This document shows positions 4,777 through 10,658 of a DNA stretch of 64,000 nt, piece by piece. Numbering within the stretch: the first letter of the stretch is position 1; every line of letters starts with the position of its first letter. A program made the translations under genes and the position numbers. Source of the stretch: Tenericutes bacterium MO-XQ (GTDB lineage: Bacteria > Bacillota_I > Bacilli_A > Acholeplasmatales > Acholeplasmataceae); assembly GCA_002838185.1 (NCBI GenBank), contig CP017948.1:1984001-2048000 (forward strand), given 5' to 3'. The notes under the pieces are model-generated. The model did not search any database, had not been told where the DNA came from, and worked only from the letters and a program-made list of their open reading frames with translations.

Positions 4777-5301
4777 TTAAATATAAGATTTTAATTTCAT
4801 ATACTTGATGAGACTAACTACAAAAAAACTTGTAGCTAAAATACCAAGAACCCCTAGTGTAATCACCCATAATGTTTGATTCATGTTTAAAAAATCCTTA
4901 AAAACTATAATCAAACTTAATGCAGCAGATGCAACAACTGTAATGATAAAATCTCTCGATATAGATAAAACTCTTTTCTTAATATTTTCAAAATGCTCAT
5001 CACTCAAATGATCTTCATCTTCAATATCATTTTCAATTTTATAGATCAGTTCATCTATCTCTTCTTTTGCTTCTTTTTCATGCTTTTTTTCAACAGTGAA
5101 AATTGTCCAAGTTAATGTCAGAAACAATACCAAAATAACGATAATAATCCATTTTTGTTTAATGATTTCTTCAGGTAAAATGATTGCCCCAACCAAAGCA
5201 AGTCCATAAAAAAATGTATAAAAGATAGGCATAAAAACACTGACTTTATTCATGTTTTTCAATTGTTTGATCATTTTTTGATCTTCATTTAATTTTTTCA
5301 T
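4777..5301 (-). CDS. Four-helix membrane protein of unknown function
   Basis: I do not recognise this 174-aa protein. It has two pairs of predicted membrane helices (about residues 22-42, 50-70, 117-137 and 144-165). The central hydrophilic stretch is very acidic and lysine-rich (about residues 71-110). The gene overlaps the aldehyde dehydrogenase stop by 4 bp, so it is translationally coupled to it, and a strong terminator follows. The topology puts the charged loop and both ends on the same, probably cytoplasmic, side. No catalytic motif is visible. Confidence 0.75.
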   Translation of the reverse strand: MKKLNEDQKMIKQLKNMNKVSVFMPIFYTFFYGLALVGAIILPEEIIKQKWIIIVILVLFLTLTWTIFTVEKKHEKEAKEEIDELIYKIENDIEDEDHLSDEHFENIKKRVLSISRDFIITVVASAALSLIIVFKDFLNMNQTLWVITLGVLGILATSFFVVSLIKYMKLKSYI

Positions 5302-6653
5302 GGTTTTAAAATCTTTCTGATAATTTTTTCTTTACCTTTATCATATGGTGGATAAGCGAGTTTGACGTCAAAAAATGTCGTCTTTTTCGTAAATGTCTTT
5401 AAATGGGAAAATGCTATAAAACTGTACACTCCATGATATCTTGCCATACCACTATGCCCAACACCACCAAAAGGTAAATGTGGGTTTGCAACTTGCATTA
5501 ACGCTTCATTGATTGCGCCATTACCAAATGAAAGTTTAGTAAACACTTCTTTCATCATTTTTTTGTCTTCAGTAAATAAATATAAGGCGAGTGGTTTTTC
5601 TTTCGTTTTAAGAAGTTCAATGACTTTATGTGCATCCTTAAATTTGATAATCGGTAAAATAGGTCCAAAGATTTCTTCTTTCATCACTTGATCGTCCCAT
5701 GTGACATCAGTCATGATGATTGGTGATAAATAGTATCCTTCATCTTTTTTCTCATATTCAAAAACAACTTTACTTTGATTAACCAATCCTTTTAATCTTT
5801 GATGATGACGTTCATTTACTATATGCCCTAAATGATTAGCTGTTGGATATTGAGTCTCTATTTCTTTTTTCAAATATTCTATAAACTCATCGTGTACACT
5901 TTCATCTATGTATATATAGTCAGGAGCAATACATGTTTGTCCTGCATTTAATAACTTTCCGAAAATGATACGTCTTGCTGTTAATTTTAAATCCGCATCT
6001 TTTAAAACGATTGTTGGACTTTTACCACCTAGTTCTAATGTTACAGGTATTAAATGTTTACTTGCTTTTTGATATACAATTTTACCGACTTCTGTACTTC
6101 CAGTAAAAAAGATATGATCAAATTTTAAATCTAAAAGTTCACTGGTAACATTTTTGTCACCCGTAACTACCTTAATATATGATTCATCAAAATATTCATT
6201 AAACATATCTAAAATAACTTTTTCAGTATTTACTGTATATTCACTTGGTTTAATGACTGCGGTATTACCTGCAGAGATTGCACCAATTAGTGGTTCAATA
6301 ACCAATTGAAAAGGATAATTATATGGTCCAATAATTAAAACATTACCCAGTGGTTCATAAACCTTATAAGATTTAGACCCAAACATAAAAAGCGGTGTCT
6401 TTACTTTAGAAACCTTCATCCATTTTTTTAGTTTCTTTATAGCCATATTAATGGACTTATAAACAAATCCAATTTCAGTTGTATAAGCTTCAATTTCAGA
6501 TTTGTGTAAATCCTTATATAACGCATCAATCATTTTATCTTCATATGCACTAATAGCATCTTTTAATATCAGAAGCTGCTTTTTTCTAAATGCATAATCT
6601 TTTGTTTGATCTGTTAAAAAATACTTTTTTTGTTTTTCCAAAATATCTAACAT
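5298..6653 (-). CDS. Aldehyde dehydrogenase, class 3 type
   Basis: This NAD(P)-dependent aldehyde dehydrogenase should oxidise fatty or aromatic aldehydes to acids. The catalytic glutamate lies in VTLELGGKSP and the nucleophilic cysteine in GQTCIAPDYIYI. The cofactor loop is FTGSTEVGKIV. The 451-aa length and the C-terminal PPYDKGKEK end are typical of the ALDH3/YwdH group, which lacks the longer N-terminus of other classes. The start at 6653 has the strong site AGAGGTGAT. It leads a two-gene operon with the membrane protein at 4777. The -10 box TATAAT on the minus strand lies about 25 bp upstream. The natural substrate is unknown. Confidence 0.92.
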   Translation of the reverse strand: MLDILEKQKKYFLTDQTKDYAFRKKQLLILKDAISAYEDKMIDALYKDLHKSEIEAYTTEIGFVYKSINMAIKKLKKWMKVSKVKTPLFMFGSKSYKVYEPLGNVLIIGPYNYPFQLVIEPLIGAISAGNTAVIKPSEYTVNTEKVILDMFNEYFDESYIKVVTGDKNVTSELLDLKFDHIFFTGSTEVGKIVYQKASKHLIPVTLELGGKSPTIVLKDADLKLTARRIIFGKLLNAGQTCIAPDYIYIDESVHDEFIEYLKKEIETQYPTANHLGHIVNERHHQRLKGLVNQSKVVFEYEKKDEGYYLSPIIMTDVTWDDQVMKEEIFGPILPIIKFKDAHKVIELLKTKEKPLALYLFTEDKKMMKEVFTKLSFGNGAINEALMQVANPHLPFGGVGHSGMARYHGVYSFIAFSHLKTFTKKTTFFDVKLAYPPYDKGKEKIIRKILKP

Positions 6654-6721
6654 GTTATCACCTCTAAGTTAATCTTATTATATCAAATATTAGACTCTTT
6701 CTAAAAAAAGTGGCAAAAAAA

Positions 6722-6740
6722 AACCGGATAAAATCCGGTT
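6722..6740. repeat. Left copy of the 19-bp target duplication flanking the IS
   Basis: AACCGGATAAAATCCGGTT sits immediately left of the IS end and recurs at 8445-8463 immediately right of it. The repeat is itself the stem-loop of the nrdJ terminator. The left copy keeps the adjoining nine-A run (6715-6723), which is the U-tract on the minus strand. Confidence 0.92.
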
Positions 6741-6756
6741 CAGGCTGTAGACAAAG

Positions 6757-6785
6757 TACCGTATCTGAGGATATGGTATTTTTTT
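6757..6785 (+). terminator. IS-borne terminator at the left end
   Basis: Arms TACCGTATC (6757-6765) and GATATGGTA (6770-6778) form a 9-bp stem with one G-U pair and a TGAG loop, then seven T. It faces into the element and would stop outside transcription from entering the transposase. Confidence 0.75.
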
Positions 6786-6810
6786 AAAAATTATTATAAA
6801 ATATGAATAT

Positions 6811-6908
6811 GAAGATCAGTTTGGTCACTTGTAGCATAGACTACTAAAAATCGGTGTAGATAGAACTACTTAATAGACCCACGTCCGCTTCTGATCTTCT
6901 TTTTTTTA
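6811..6908 (+). ncRNA. Possible structured leader RNA/attenuator in the IS
   Basis: GAAGATCAG (6811-6819) pairs with CTGATCTTC (6891-6899), followed by eight T. Inside, GGTC (6823-6826) pairs with GACC (6876-6879). These enclose two near-identical small hairpins, GTAG-N6-CTAC, at 6831-6844 and 6856-6869. The nested arrangement looks like a multi-branched RNA ending in a terminator, upstream of the transposase. It has only been judged by eye, and I know no named RNA family that it matches. Confidence 0.4.
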
Positions 6909-6924
6909 TACAAAAGTTACTTTT

Positions 6925-6946
6925 ACCTATATATAAATATATAGGT
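6925..6946. promoter_or_regulatory. AT-rich 22-bp inverted repeat before the transposase
   Basis: Arms ACCTATATAT and ATATATAGGT are a perfect 10-bp inverted repeat around AA, 36 bp before the transposase ATG. It may overlap the transposase promoter (TAAAAT at 6954-6959 is a possible -10) or serve as a transposase binding site. Confidence 0.35.
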
Positions 6947-6981
6947 AACATGGTAAAATAATAACAAAGGTTGGTGATTTC

Positions 6982-8328
6982 ATGTTAACAAAACATCAAA
7001 TAAACAATCGCGAAAACATCTTCATCATGGACATGGATAAACTCGTTCCAAACAATCATCTAGTTAGAAAAATAGATAAAGCGATTGATTTCAGTTTTAT
7101 TTATGATATTGTAGAAAATTTATACGCAGATGATATGGGAAGACCATCTATAGACCCAGTCATTTTATTTAAGATTGTCTTTATTCAGTATTTATTTAAC
7201 ATTAGATCCATGAGAAGAACAATTGAAGAAATCGAAGTTAATGCTGCATATCGATGGTTTTTAGGATACGATTTTAATGATGTCGTTCCACACTTTTCAA
7301 CCTTTGGGAAAAACTATGTACGTCGTTTTGAAGGCACTTCTGTTTTTGAAGAGATCTTTAATACGATTTTATATCAAGCCATGAAATTAAAGCTTGTCAA
7401 AATGGATAATATATTTGTCGATGCAACACATATTAAGGCATATGCAAATAAAAGACAAGTCAATGACATTATCATCAATGATTCAACGAACCGGTATGTA
7501 GAATCTCTACAAACAGAAATCAATGAAGTTAGAGTTGAAGAAGGCAAAAAAGAAATAGATTTCAACGAAGCTAAAAAAGTAACAAAGAGCCTTACTGATC
7601 CGGACTGTGGCATGTTTCATAAAGGTGAGAAAGAAAGACAGTTAGCCTATAGTAACCAAGTGATTAGTGATGAAAACGGATGGGTATTAGCATCTCAAGT
7701 ATTTCCAGGTAACTTACACGATAGTCAAACTGGACTGGAAACAGTCATTAATTATATAGAAGCTCATGAAGAAGTTGACATGGCAGTTATGGATTCAGGG
7801 TATGATCATCCAGTATTACTTCATGAATTATTTAAACGAGGTGTTAAGCCTGTGATTCCCTATAAAAGACCTAAAGGAAGAAAAGGTGCTGGTGGATCAT
7901 CCAATATATTATATTTTACAAAACATAGATTCAAATATATTGAACTTCATGATTATTATGTTTGTCCAAATGAAAAAGTCTTAACTTATAGAGGTACCAA
8001 CAAACAAGGCTATAAAGCATATAAAACAAAAACGAAAGATTGTTTAAATTGTCCTTTTAAGACTCAGTGTACAAATCAGAAAACAAAAGTGATACTAAGA
8101 CATTTTTATGAAGCAGATAGTGAAGAAGCTAAACTGATTCGACTATCTGAGATTGGCAAAGAGGTATATCCGAAAAGAAAAACATCAGTTGAAAGGGTGT
8201 TTGGAATTTCAAAAATGAATCATTGTCTGGGATTTACGTTTCTTAGAGGACTTAGGAAAAATGAGGATCGAAGCTTCATGATTTTAAGTATGTACAATTT
8301 GAAAAAGTTAGCCACAATCATGTGGTAA
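6982..8328 (+). CDS. IS1182-family transposase
   Basis: This 448-aa DDE transposase has the N-terminal DUF772-type domain (VPNNHLVRKIDKAIDF near residue 22, then GRPSIDPVILFKIVFIQYLF near 52). A catalytic core follows, with the first aspartate in FVDATHIKAYANK near residue 150 and the second in AVMDSGYDHP near 275. A cysteine cluster (DCLNCPFKTQC near residue 355) and an acidic C-terminal region (TSVERVFGISKMNHCLGF) complete it. It appears full length and undamaged. The start has AAAGG and GGTGAT upstream. It should cut and join the 15-bp ends of the surrounding element. Confidence 0.93.
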   Translation: MLTKHQINNRENIFIMDMDKLVPNNHLVRKIDKAIDFSFIYDIVENLYADDMGRPSIDPVILFKIVFIQYLFNIRSMRRTIEEIEVNAAYRWFLGYDFNDVVPHFSTFGKNYVRRFEGTSVFEEIFNTILYQAMKLKLVKMDNIFVDATHIKAYANKRQVNDIIINDSTNRYVESLQTEINEVRVEEGKKEIDFNEAKKVTKSLTDPDCGMFHKGEKERQLAYSNQVISDENGWVLASQVFPGNLHDSQTGLETVINYIEAHEEVDMAVMDSGYDHPVLLHELFKRGVKPVIPYKRPKGRKGAGGSSNILYFTKHRFKYIELHDYYVCPNEKVLTYRGTNKQGYKAYKTKTKDCLNCPFKTQCTNQKTKVILRHFYEADSEEAKLIRLSEIGKEVYPKRKTSVERVFGISKMNHCLGFTFLRGLRKNEDRSFMILSMYNLKKLATIMW

Positions 8329-8383
8329 TATATCTGCGATTTGACTGGAATTGAGTGAAAAACTCTTTTTTTTATACTCAAAC

Positions 8384-8413
8384 AAAAAAAGAACATCTCA
8401 AAATGAGATATTC
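8384..8413 (-). terminator. IS-borne terminator facing the minus strand
   Basis: Arms 8391-8400 and 8404-8413 pair over 10 bp with one G-U pair in the minus-strand transcript, followed by seven T on that strand. It would stop nrdJ read-through entering the element. A much weaker GAGT/ACTC hairpin with eight T at 8353-8373 may end the transposase transcript on the plus strand. Confidence 0.6.
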
Positions 8414-8444
8414 TTCTTAAAAAACTGTTTTTGTCTACAGTCTG

Positions 8445-8463
8445 AACCGGATAAAATCCGGTT
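8445..8463 (-). terminator. nrdJ terminator stem cut off from its U-tract
   Basis: This right-hand copy of AACCGGATAAAATCCGGTT still forms the stem directly after nrdJ. On the minus strand it is now followed by the IS end (CAGACTG) instead of the T-run, which stayed with the copy at 6722-6740. Intrinsic termination here should be impaired. Confidence 0.8.
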
Positions 8464-8471
8464 TTAATGAT

Positions 8472-10658
8472 TTAGATTGCACATTTTTCGTATACACAGT
8501 CTGGATCACTACATTGAATACATCCTTGTTTTTTAACAAGTACGCCACCACATAGTGGACATAATTCTTTTTCAATCTTTTCAGGTGTATACCCTGATTG
8601 TGAAACAGAAATATGAGTTACATATTCTTTCGCTTCACCTTTCTTCTTGTCGAACCATTTTTCTTCAACATGTAGATGAGGTGGTGTTGCTGGATTTAAA
8701 TCTTTTGTATCTTCGTTAACGCCAGCTAAAATACCTATCTTAGCACAGCGATCTCTAAATACTGTAGCACCTTTTAATCCCTTTGACCAAGCAGTTGTAT
8801 AAATATTCATTACATCTTCAACTGTCGCACTATTATTTAAATTGAATGTTGATGAAATTGCTGTATCAACATATTTTTGAATAGTTGCTTGAACATTTGC
8901 ACGATCTTCAAAAGCAATATTTTGAGATGTGATCAAAGCCCATGCTGGTAAGTTTTCTGGTTCAACATGCATTGCTTTCGCAAGTGCAAGTGGTGTTTTT
9001 TCCCATACAGTAATTGTTTTTTCTTCTTCAAACATACTTACAATTCTTCTTGTATAGTTAATTTGGAAGAATGGCTCTACACCGCCACTTACACCAAGGA
9101 TATTAGAGATTGATCCTGTAGGAGCAATACTTAATAATCTTGAGTTTCTCATACCATATTTCTTAACAAGTTCGTCAGTATCTTTATCGATAGCTGTTTT
9201 GTAGAATGATGAACTTGAAACTTTATCATAATCAAATCTTGGGAATACACCTAACTCTTTTGCATTAAGTGCACTTGCTTTAGTTGCTGTATTAATCATT
9301 CTGCTCATAAGTTTATCTAAAAACTCTAAGAATGGTTTAGATCCATAAGGTAATTTCATAGATAAAGCTAAGTCAGCTAATCCCATAACACCTAAACCAA
9401 TTTCACGATATTCAGTCACATGTTTTCTTTGTTCAGGTAATGCATGACGATCACCTAATAATGTAAGTAATTCATCAAGTGCATAAATCATTTCTGATGT
9501 TACAAAATCAAAACGATCAAAATCATAATGAGCATCATCAGTAAATGGATTTCTAACAAATGCATTTAAATTAATACTTCCTAAATTACATGACCCATGT
9601 GCCATGAGTGGTTGTTCACCACAAGGATTGGTTGCAGTAAATCTCACATCATCATATTCACTCATGAAATGATAATCATTCATATGGTCAATGAACACAA
9701 CACCAGGGTCTCCCATTGTGTGTGCAGCATATCCGACAAGTTTTAATAATTCTTTTGCATTAACTTTCTTTTCGATAATTTCATATGGTGTTTCAAACTT
9801 CATCACCCATTCTTTATTATCTTTAGCAGCTTGCATAAAATCATCAGTTAAAGCAATCGAAATGTTTGCACCATTAACTTTACTCAAATCTAATTTAGTC
9901 GTAATAAAATCAATAATGTCTGGATGATCAATATTTAAAACTAACATTAACGCACCACGTCTAGCGTCTTGTTGTGTATTTAATGTCGTATGTGAATATT
10001 TCTCAGCGAATACCATAACACCAGGTGTAGTATTACTACTGTTATTCACCTTAGCTCCTTTAGGACGAATATTTGATAAATTCATCCCTTGACCGCCACC
10101 GTAGCTATATGTTCTAGCGATTTGATAATCAACCTTATAAATACTTTCTAAGTTATCTTGTGGGTCTTCTGTAACATAACAGTTAGATCCAGTAATATTA
10201 CCTTCTCTACCAATCGCATATAAATTACGACCACCGAAGATCGCTTCTTTTTTTCTTAAAATTTTTTCTAAAGATGATTTTCCTAAACTAATTCTTTTTA
10301 AGAAATCTTTTTTATCTTCACCTTTGATCAAATATTTTTGTAGAATCAAATCCTGTCTTTCATCGTTATCAGACCATGGGTTTTCTCGATCATGTTTTTG
10401 TTTTTCACGATATTTGATATACGCTCTAGCAGCTTCAAACTGCTTAGATTGCATTAAAAAGTCTTCAACGTCATCTTGAATACGTTCAATGTTGACATCT
10501 TCATCCTTTTTATAGCTCTTTGTGATTTTCTCAGCTTGCTTTTGACAGTCTTCTAAAGTAAAGTTCGCACCTACCCCTTTATAGGCTTTAAACATTGCTA
10601 AAGCAATCTTGTTGAAATCAAAGAGTTCCTTTGCCCCATTACGTTTTACTACATACAT
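8472..10658 (-). CDS. nrdJ: Adenosylcobalamin-dependent ribonucleotide reductase (class II)
   Basis: This enzyme reduces ribonucleotides to deoxyribonucleotides with a B12-derived radical. Residues 1-90 are an ATP-cone allosteric domain (YVVKRNGAKELFDFNKIA). The catalytic barrel shows GSNCYVTEDP near residue 153, GGGQGMNLSNIRPKGAKV, RRGALMLVLNIDHPDI, the active-site finger NPCGEQPL near 343 and SNILGVSGGVEPFF. The last 30 residues carry a cysteine cluster (CPLCGG, CIQCSDPDC, EKC) that should relay electrons from thioredoxin. No separate radical subunit gene is nearby, in line with class II. At 728 aa it is typical of the Thermotoga/clostridial type. Its terminator was split by the IS downstream. 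Confidence 0.92.
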   Translation of the reverse strand: MYVVKRNGAKELFDFNKIALAMFKAYKGVGANFTLEDCQKQAEKITKSYKKDEDVNIERIQDDVEDFLMQSKQFEAARAYIKYREKQKHDRENPWSDNDERQDLILQKYLIKGEDKKDFLKRISLGKSSLEKILRKKEAIFGGRNLYAIGREGNITGSNCYVTEDPQDNLESIYKVDYQIARTYSYGGGQGMNLSNIRPKGAKVNNSSNTTPGVMVFAEKYSHTTLNTQQDARRGALMLVLNIDHPDIIDFITTKLDLSKVNGANISIALTDDFMQAAKDNKEWVMKFETPYEIIEKKVNAKELLKLVGYAAHTMGDPGVVFIDHMNDYHFMSEYDDVRFTATNPCGEQPLMAHGSCNLGSINLNAFVRNPFTDDAHYDFDRFDFVTSEMIYALDELLTLLGDRHALPEQRKHVTEYREIGLGVMGLADLALSMKLPYGSKPFLEFLDKLMSRMINTATKASALNAKELGVFPRFDYDKVSSSSFYKTAIDKDTDELVKKYGMRNSRLLSIAPTGSISNILGVSGGVEPFFQINYTRRIVSMFEEEKTITVWEKTPLALAKAMHVEPENLPAWALITSQNIAFEDRANVQATIQKYVDTAISSTFNLNNSATVEDVMNIYTTAWSKGLKGATVFRDRCAKIGILAGVNEDTKDLNPATPPHLHVEEKWFDKKKGEAKEYVTHISVSQSGYTPEKIEKELCPLCGGVLVKKQGCIQCSDPDCVYEKCAI

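Follow-up and report, generated by a model that had tools for sequence, protein, structure and literature searches.

Elements of an IS1182 group probably use the hairpin of intrinsic terminators as their insertion target, which is the best explanation of the results as a whole. The joining points of these insertion sequences (IS) are symmetric about the hairpin axis and fall at the stem foot or close to it. As a result, the whole hairpin is copied and one copy is found on each side of the IS. For the hairpin copy that transcription meets first, the U-tract is now on the other side of the IS.

The element that led to this result, here called the window IS, is found in a 64,000-nucleotide stretch of contig CP017948.1 from Tenericutes bacterium MO-XQ (the window), and all positions given for it are those of this stretch. 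It is a 1,704-bp insertion sequence at 6741-8444 (plus strand), and the 2.16-Mb MO-XQ genome has nine copies of it. Mariniplasma anaerobium (Acholeplasmataceae) is a close relative of MO-XQ, and genome G004, which belongs to the same genus, matches NZ_AP024413.1, a plasmid of M. anaerobium. The window IS has a single ORF at 6982-8328 (plus strand), whose profile matches identify a 448-aa transposase: it scores 370 bits against the IS1182 model NF033551, which has a cut-off of 270, and matches both PF05598 (DUF772) and PF13751 (DDE_Tnp_1_6) over their cut-offs. The 15-bp terminal inverted repeats share CAGRCTGTAGACAAA at both ends, being CAGGCTGTAGACAAA at 6741-6755 (plus strand) and CAGACTGTAGACAAA at 8430-8444 (minus strand), and the element is assigned to the IS1182 family by its transposase, these repeats and the single ORF.

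A structured leader (6811-6907, plus strand) lies upstream of the transposase gene, after the left IS end. It is predicted as a multibranched RNA with GAAGATCAG/CTGATCTTC as its closing helix and a T8 run behind it, and of its 18 predicted pairs six have double compensatory changes in a comparison of four relatives. The exact core of the leader is present only in IS copies in the genomes searched, and an Rfam search of the window IS and the leader gave no significant match. The leader is possibly an attenuator or a small RNA. Targeting by a guide RNA, an idea prompted by this leader, was rejected, as the targets are alike in structure only and not in sequence, and the leader was found only in the Mariniplasma/Acholeplasma versions of the IS. 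A 26-bp palindrome, TTACCTATATATAAATATATAGGTAA, is located at 6923-6948, just 5' of the transposase start, and is mostly kept in four relatives; it is possibly an operator or promoter element.

The terminator that the window IS has split served nrdJ, which encodes a B12-dependent ribonucleotide reductase (8472-10658, minus strand). The end of the gene, at 8472, is separated by 8 bp from the right hairpin copy. The initial annotation of this DNA had read the 19-bp duplication around the IS as the whole stem-loop of the nrdJ terminator, and this is borne out: repeat comparison places AACCGGATAAAATCCGGTT at 6722-6740 (left or far copy) and at 8445-8463 (right or nrdJ-side copy) with 100% identity, each copy is a complete hairpin and both adjoin the 15-bp terminal repeats. 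The nrdJ-side copy runs into the IS end, as had also been described, being followed on the minus strand by two T, which are part of the repeat, and then by CAGACTGTAG. The far copy keeps the nine-base T-run of the original terminator (T9 at 6715-6723, minus strand), of which two T are within the duplication. In a d'Aubenton-Carafa-type score, the intact terminator reaches 26.2 and the nrdJ-side copy, which has lost its U-tract, -41.7. Any read-through would enter a codirectional aldehyde-dehydrogenase-like gene located downstream (5298-6653, minus strand). The terminator facing nrdJ inside the right end of the IS is found exactly where the initial annotation placed it, at 8384-8413 on the minus strand, with the hairpin GAATATCTCATTTTGAGATGTTC at 8413-8391 and T7 at 8390-8384; its predicted score of 23.4, against 26.2 for the intact nrdJ terminator, makes it a credible candidate replacement. 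A second inward-facing terminator, which had been overlooked, is predicted at the left end (6757-6785, plus strand), where the hairpin TACCGTATC-TGAG-GATATGGTA with T7 has a score of 10.4.

Eight of the nine MO-XQ copies are flanked by a duplication of the whole hairpin, whose sequence differs from site to site. Six of them have clean and exact duplications of 19-28 bp, while L002 and L003 have a 27-bp duplication with one mismatch between the repeats and, having identical flanks, are counted as one site. The ninth copy, L009, has a flank altered by a second IS, called IS-B. The L003 and L002 copies lie at about 1623.8 kb and 1722.8 kb of G000:C1, 98,930 bp apart, and a further shared match is found at the same offset (1650.9/1749.8 kb); this sequence pattern suggests a large duplication in the chromosome or in the assembly, which may be connected with the contamination estimate of 6.92%.

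Whole-hairpin duplication is a behaviour of the family and not of the window IS only. Relatives with transposases 37-97% identical show it in Mariniplasma, other Mollicutes, Clostridia (Alkalithermobacter), E. faecium, E. faecalis, Cytobacillus firmus, Rhizobium and Vibrio penaeicida. Outside MO-XQ, three duplications are found in genome G003, three in G004 and one in G021, to which are added five MAG/Clostridia contigs, L042 and L056, and cases in E. faecium, V. penaeicida, E. faecalis, Cytobacillus (35 bp), Rhizobium (26 bp) and ISEfa7 (25 bp). A Desulforamulus insertion split over two contigs is left out of the set of 27 insertions analysed. Three ISEfa7 copies (L104, L105 and L146) have no duplication, perhaps as a result of rearrangement. 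Four other copies (L021, L051, L052 and L055) have different complete hairpins on the left and on the right; judged by their flanks, they likely arose by recombination between IS copies, which makes them markers of rearrangement. No clear hairpin duplication was found in the ISCfr1-type and other proteobacterial IS1182 elements sampled.

Orthologous sites that are free of the IS hold one hairpin each and not two, so the duplication is made by the insertion. In G003, a close relative of MO-XQ, the gap between nrdJ and the aldehyde-dehydrogenase-like gene has a single hairpin with T8, the L005 site has an identical single hairpin, and the asnS site has one hairpin, AAATAAGTGCTAAACAGCACTTATTT. 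The reverse case is the L027 site of G003, which is empty in the MO-XQ genome.

Among the 27 insertions, the duplication is 17-36 bp long (median 24). Its centre coincides with the hairpin axis in 23, and the remaining four deviate from it by no more than 0.5 bp. Self-symmetry, defined as at least 75% of positions paired about the centre, is present in 19 of 23 duplications and in 2% of random segments of the window. The duplication tends to be longer where the G:C core of the stem spans more base pairs (Spearman 0.66, p 2e-4, n=27), a measure picked after raw hairpin length had failed; the raw length including flanking A/T pairs correlates only weakly because the flanking A and T runs pair. 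All 27 sites are at a gene 3' end, with 13 convergent, 12 codirectional and two with one side unknown, and none of them is divergent or inside a gene. The targeting of terminators that had been proposed from the nrdJ site alone therefore extends to the other copies of the IS, which consistently prefer hairpins at gene 3' ends. In 45 of 46 directions, the hairpin that transcription reaches first has a lower predicted score once the IS is inserted.

IS-B is a second IS1182-like group in MO-XQ, with a 500-aa transposase that scores 252 bits, slightly below the cut-off of 270. Its copies L133, L134, L135 and L136 are located at 125 kb, 1966 kb, 1283 kb and 2057.6 kb of G000:C1 and have the ends GGGACTGTAAAGAAA/GAGCCTGTAAAGAAA. 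In the tree it belongs to a clade separate from the window-type IS; this tree, from which three rows dropped out because of strand, supports only the separation of the replacing and ISCfr1-type groups from the duplicating elements, not a single clade of the latter. IS-B carries inward terminators like the window IS, but differs from it in clade, in its ends and in the removal of the hairpin without duplication, an outcome known from IS1272. Typically, the left flank of IS-B ends in an A-run, the right flank begins with a T-run and the hairpin has disappeared, and one IS-B site that is empty in G003 has a hairpin there. From these junctions, IS-B appears to insert at terminators and to replace the hairpin instead of duplicating it. 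Both types meet at asnS (L009/L136), where the order is flank, A7, IS-B, TT, window-type IS, hairpin AAATAAGTGCTATCTAGCACTTATTT and asnS. The simplest history suggested by this arrangement begins with duplication of the hairpin by the window-type IS, after which IS-B replaced the left copy and the right copy survived. The asnS terminator of M. anaerobium, in genome G004, has an independent insertion of a window-type IS in the opposite orientation. The 93-kb contig G000:C2 has both ends inside IS-B transposase fragments (L137 and L138), and may represent either a circle or a part of the chromosome that was interrupted at a copy of IS-B.

Inward terminators were scored in 13 representative elements, taking the best one at most 70 nt from each end and dinucleotide shuffles as control. 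The score is above zero at the left end in ten of 13 elements and at the right end in ten of 13, where shuffles lead one to expect 0.0 and 0.05, and it is below zero in three of 13 at each end; the Alkalithermobacter element has no right-end terminator. For the two ends of the window IS, none of 40 shuffles reaches zero at either end. The sequences of the IS-end stems diverge between relatives; their structure and their place directly after the terminal repeat stay, and the Rhizobium element, in spite of being GC-rich, has an inward terminator at each end. Three ISCfr1-type IS1182 elements, a small control, have none. Among the relatives, the predicted inward terminators of the two ends form a conserved and non-random trait.

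In the proposed mechanism, the transposase would recognise the folded hairpin and attack the 5' feet of the stem. These feet would lie close together in a four-way junction, and the length of the duplication would therefore vary with the hairpin. Recognition of a cruciform is what we infer for the target, and other routes to the same geometry have to be weighed. A hairpin formed by single-stranded DNA, the lagging strand for instance, is a less likely target, although insertion is seen in both orientations and cruciform extrusion from duplex DNA is poor for stems as short as 7-10 bp: the duplication is symmetric on both strands, which a double-stranded four-way junction explains most simply. 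A variable staggered cut with a strong preference for palindromes is a less probable alternative to cruciform recognition. That the IS inserts without targeting, and that copies persist at gene ends because they are harmful elsewhere, agrees with every site being an intergenic 3' end but has very little probability, since selection cannot place the ends of the duplication within 0.5 bp of axis symmetry in 27 of 27 cases and since one asnS terminator was struck twice independently. That two terminator hairpins existed before the IS landed between them has nothing found in its favour and is practically excluded by the single hairpin at the same place in IS-free relatives, and by copies that match each other yet differ between sites.

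Once the IS is inserted by such hairpin-directed attack, its inward terminators would stop the transcripts that pass the damaged host terminator and would shield the transposase gene from transcription entering in the sense or antisense direction. At nrdJ they would keep the transcripts short and spare the downstream gene, either as a side effect of this shielding or as a further function, and the far copy with its T9 would be a second barrier before that gene. The initial annotation saw in this a self-repair that could soften the effect on the host. The predicted presence of replacement terminators at both ends supports this part of the claim, but the simplest reason for them is protection of the IS from incoming transcription, and relief of the host may be a by-product. 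A stricter alternative is as likely as not; in it the inward hairpins serve the IS only, as insulation of the transposase or as part of a transposase-binding region, and the sparing of the host is incidental. The hairpins face inward at both ends of nearly all relatives and adjoin the 15-bp terminal repeat, the left stem is made from the terminal repeat itself in L050, L052, ISEfa7 and L107, and terminator sites receive heavy incoming transcription. However, the scores of the IS ends resemble those of the displaced terminators (23.4 and 26.2 at nrdJ), the T-tracts are needless for a pure protein-binding role, and the two functions do not exclude each other.

A wider reading is moderately favoured, in which a cross-phylum IS1182 group is specialised for terminators by structure-guided duplication of hairpins, by a duplication length set by the target and by matched inward terminators that compensate the damage. 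Duplicating and replacing would then be two branches of one reaction, carried out by two related IS groups in one genome and side by side at asnS.

Some IS1182 members are known to target palindromes (Siguier 2015, as cited in PMC4923244), and this behaviour is represented here by 27 insertions into hairpins. Targeting of hairpins and terminators has been published for IS1272 and TnSha1 of Staphylococcus (PMC4923244, PMC5678879), which resemble the window IS in having an IS1182-family transposase, hairpin targets, many of them confirmed terminators, no primary sequence consensus and both orientations. IS1272 deletes the hairpin and makes no target duplication, whereas the window IS and its relatives keep and duplicate the whole hairpin in the 27 flanked insertions examined; both hairpin copies of the window IS are complete and the duplications of 17-36 bp recur across these insertions, so it is not an IS1272-type replacing element. 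No description of inward terminators at both ends is found in the parts considered of the IS1272 and TnSha1 accounts (PMC4923244, PMC5678879).

In the Wan 2017 model (PMC5678879), IS1272 attacks the 3' feet and the hairpin is deleted, while in a hypothetical pathway b (Fig 13) attack at the 5' feet of the cruciform would duplicate the whole stem-loop. The symmetric duplication of the whole stem-loop by window-type IS, with no shift from the axis in 23 of 27 and one of at most 0.5 bp in the others, fits the prediction of pathway b, which is a side branch of the IS1272 model there and is here the rule for a group across several phyla. ISEfa7, an IS1182-like element of Enterococcus plasmids, has a transposase 45% identical to that of the window IS and shares its CAGACTGTAGACAAA ends. 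It too carries an inward terminator at each end, and in pELF_AA94 it is flanked by a hairpin duplication of 25 bp; it differs from the window IS in that several copies are without duplication. In the open-access literature (subscription papers and ISfinder being outside the search), whole-hairpin duplication is found only as the hypothetical pathway of Wan 2017 and not as a rule, and neither paired inward terminators nor both modes in one genome were found described. The novelty of these three features is provisional.

Group IIC introns likewise insert at intrinsic terminator hairpins, but do so beside the stem by RNA-based retrohoming, with no hairpin duplication and no DDE transposase. DDE transposases normally make duplications of fixed length because it is the protein that determines how far apart the two cuts are. 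In the present group the length varies with a folded feature of the target, and structure-directed insertion can therefore be put to a direct test, using a defined transposase and hairpins made to design. Because the IS inserts round gene-end hairpins, copies them and carries predicted stop signals of its own, it would break the terminator of a gene and could supply a spare. Split terminators of this kind are to be reckoned with in terminator annotation and in the analysis of read-through, and the paired inward terminators suggest how an IS can occupy heavily transcribed intergenic sites while staying quiet and nearly harmless.
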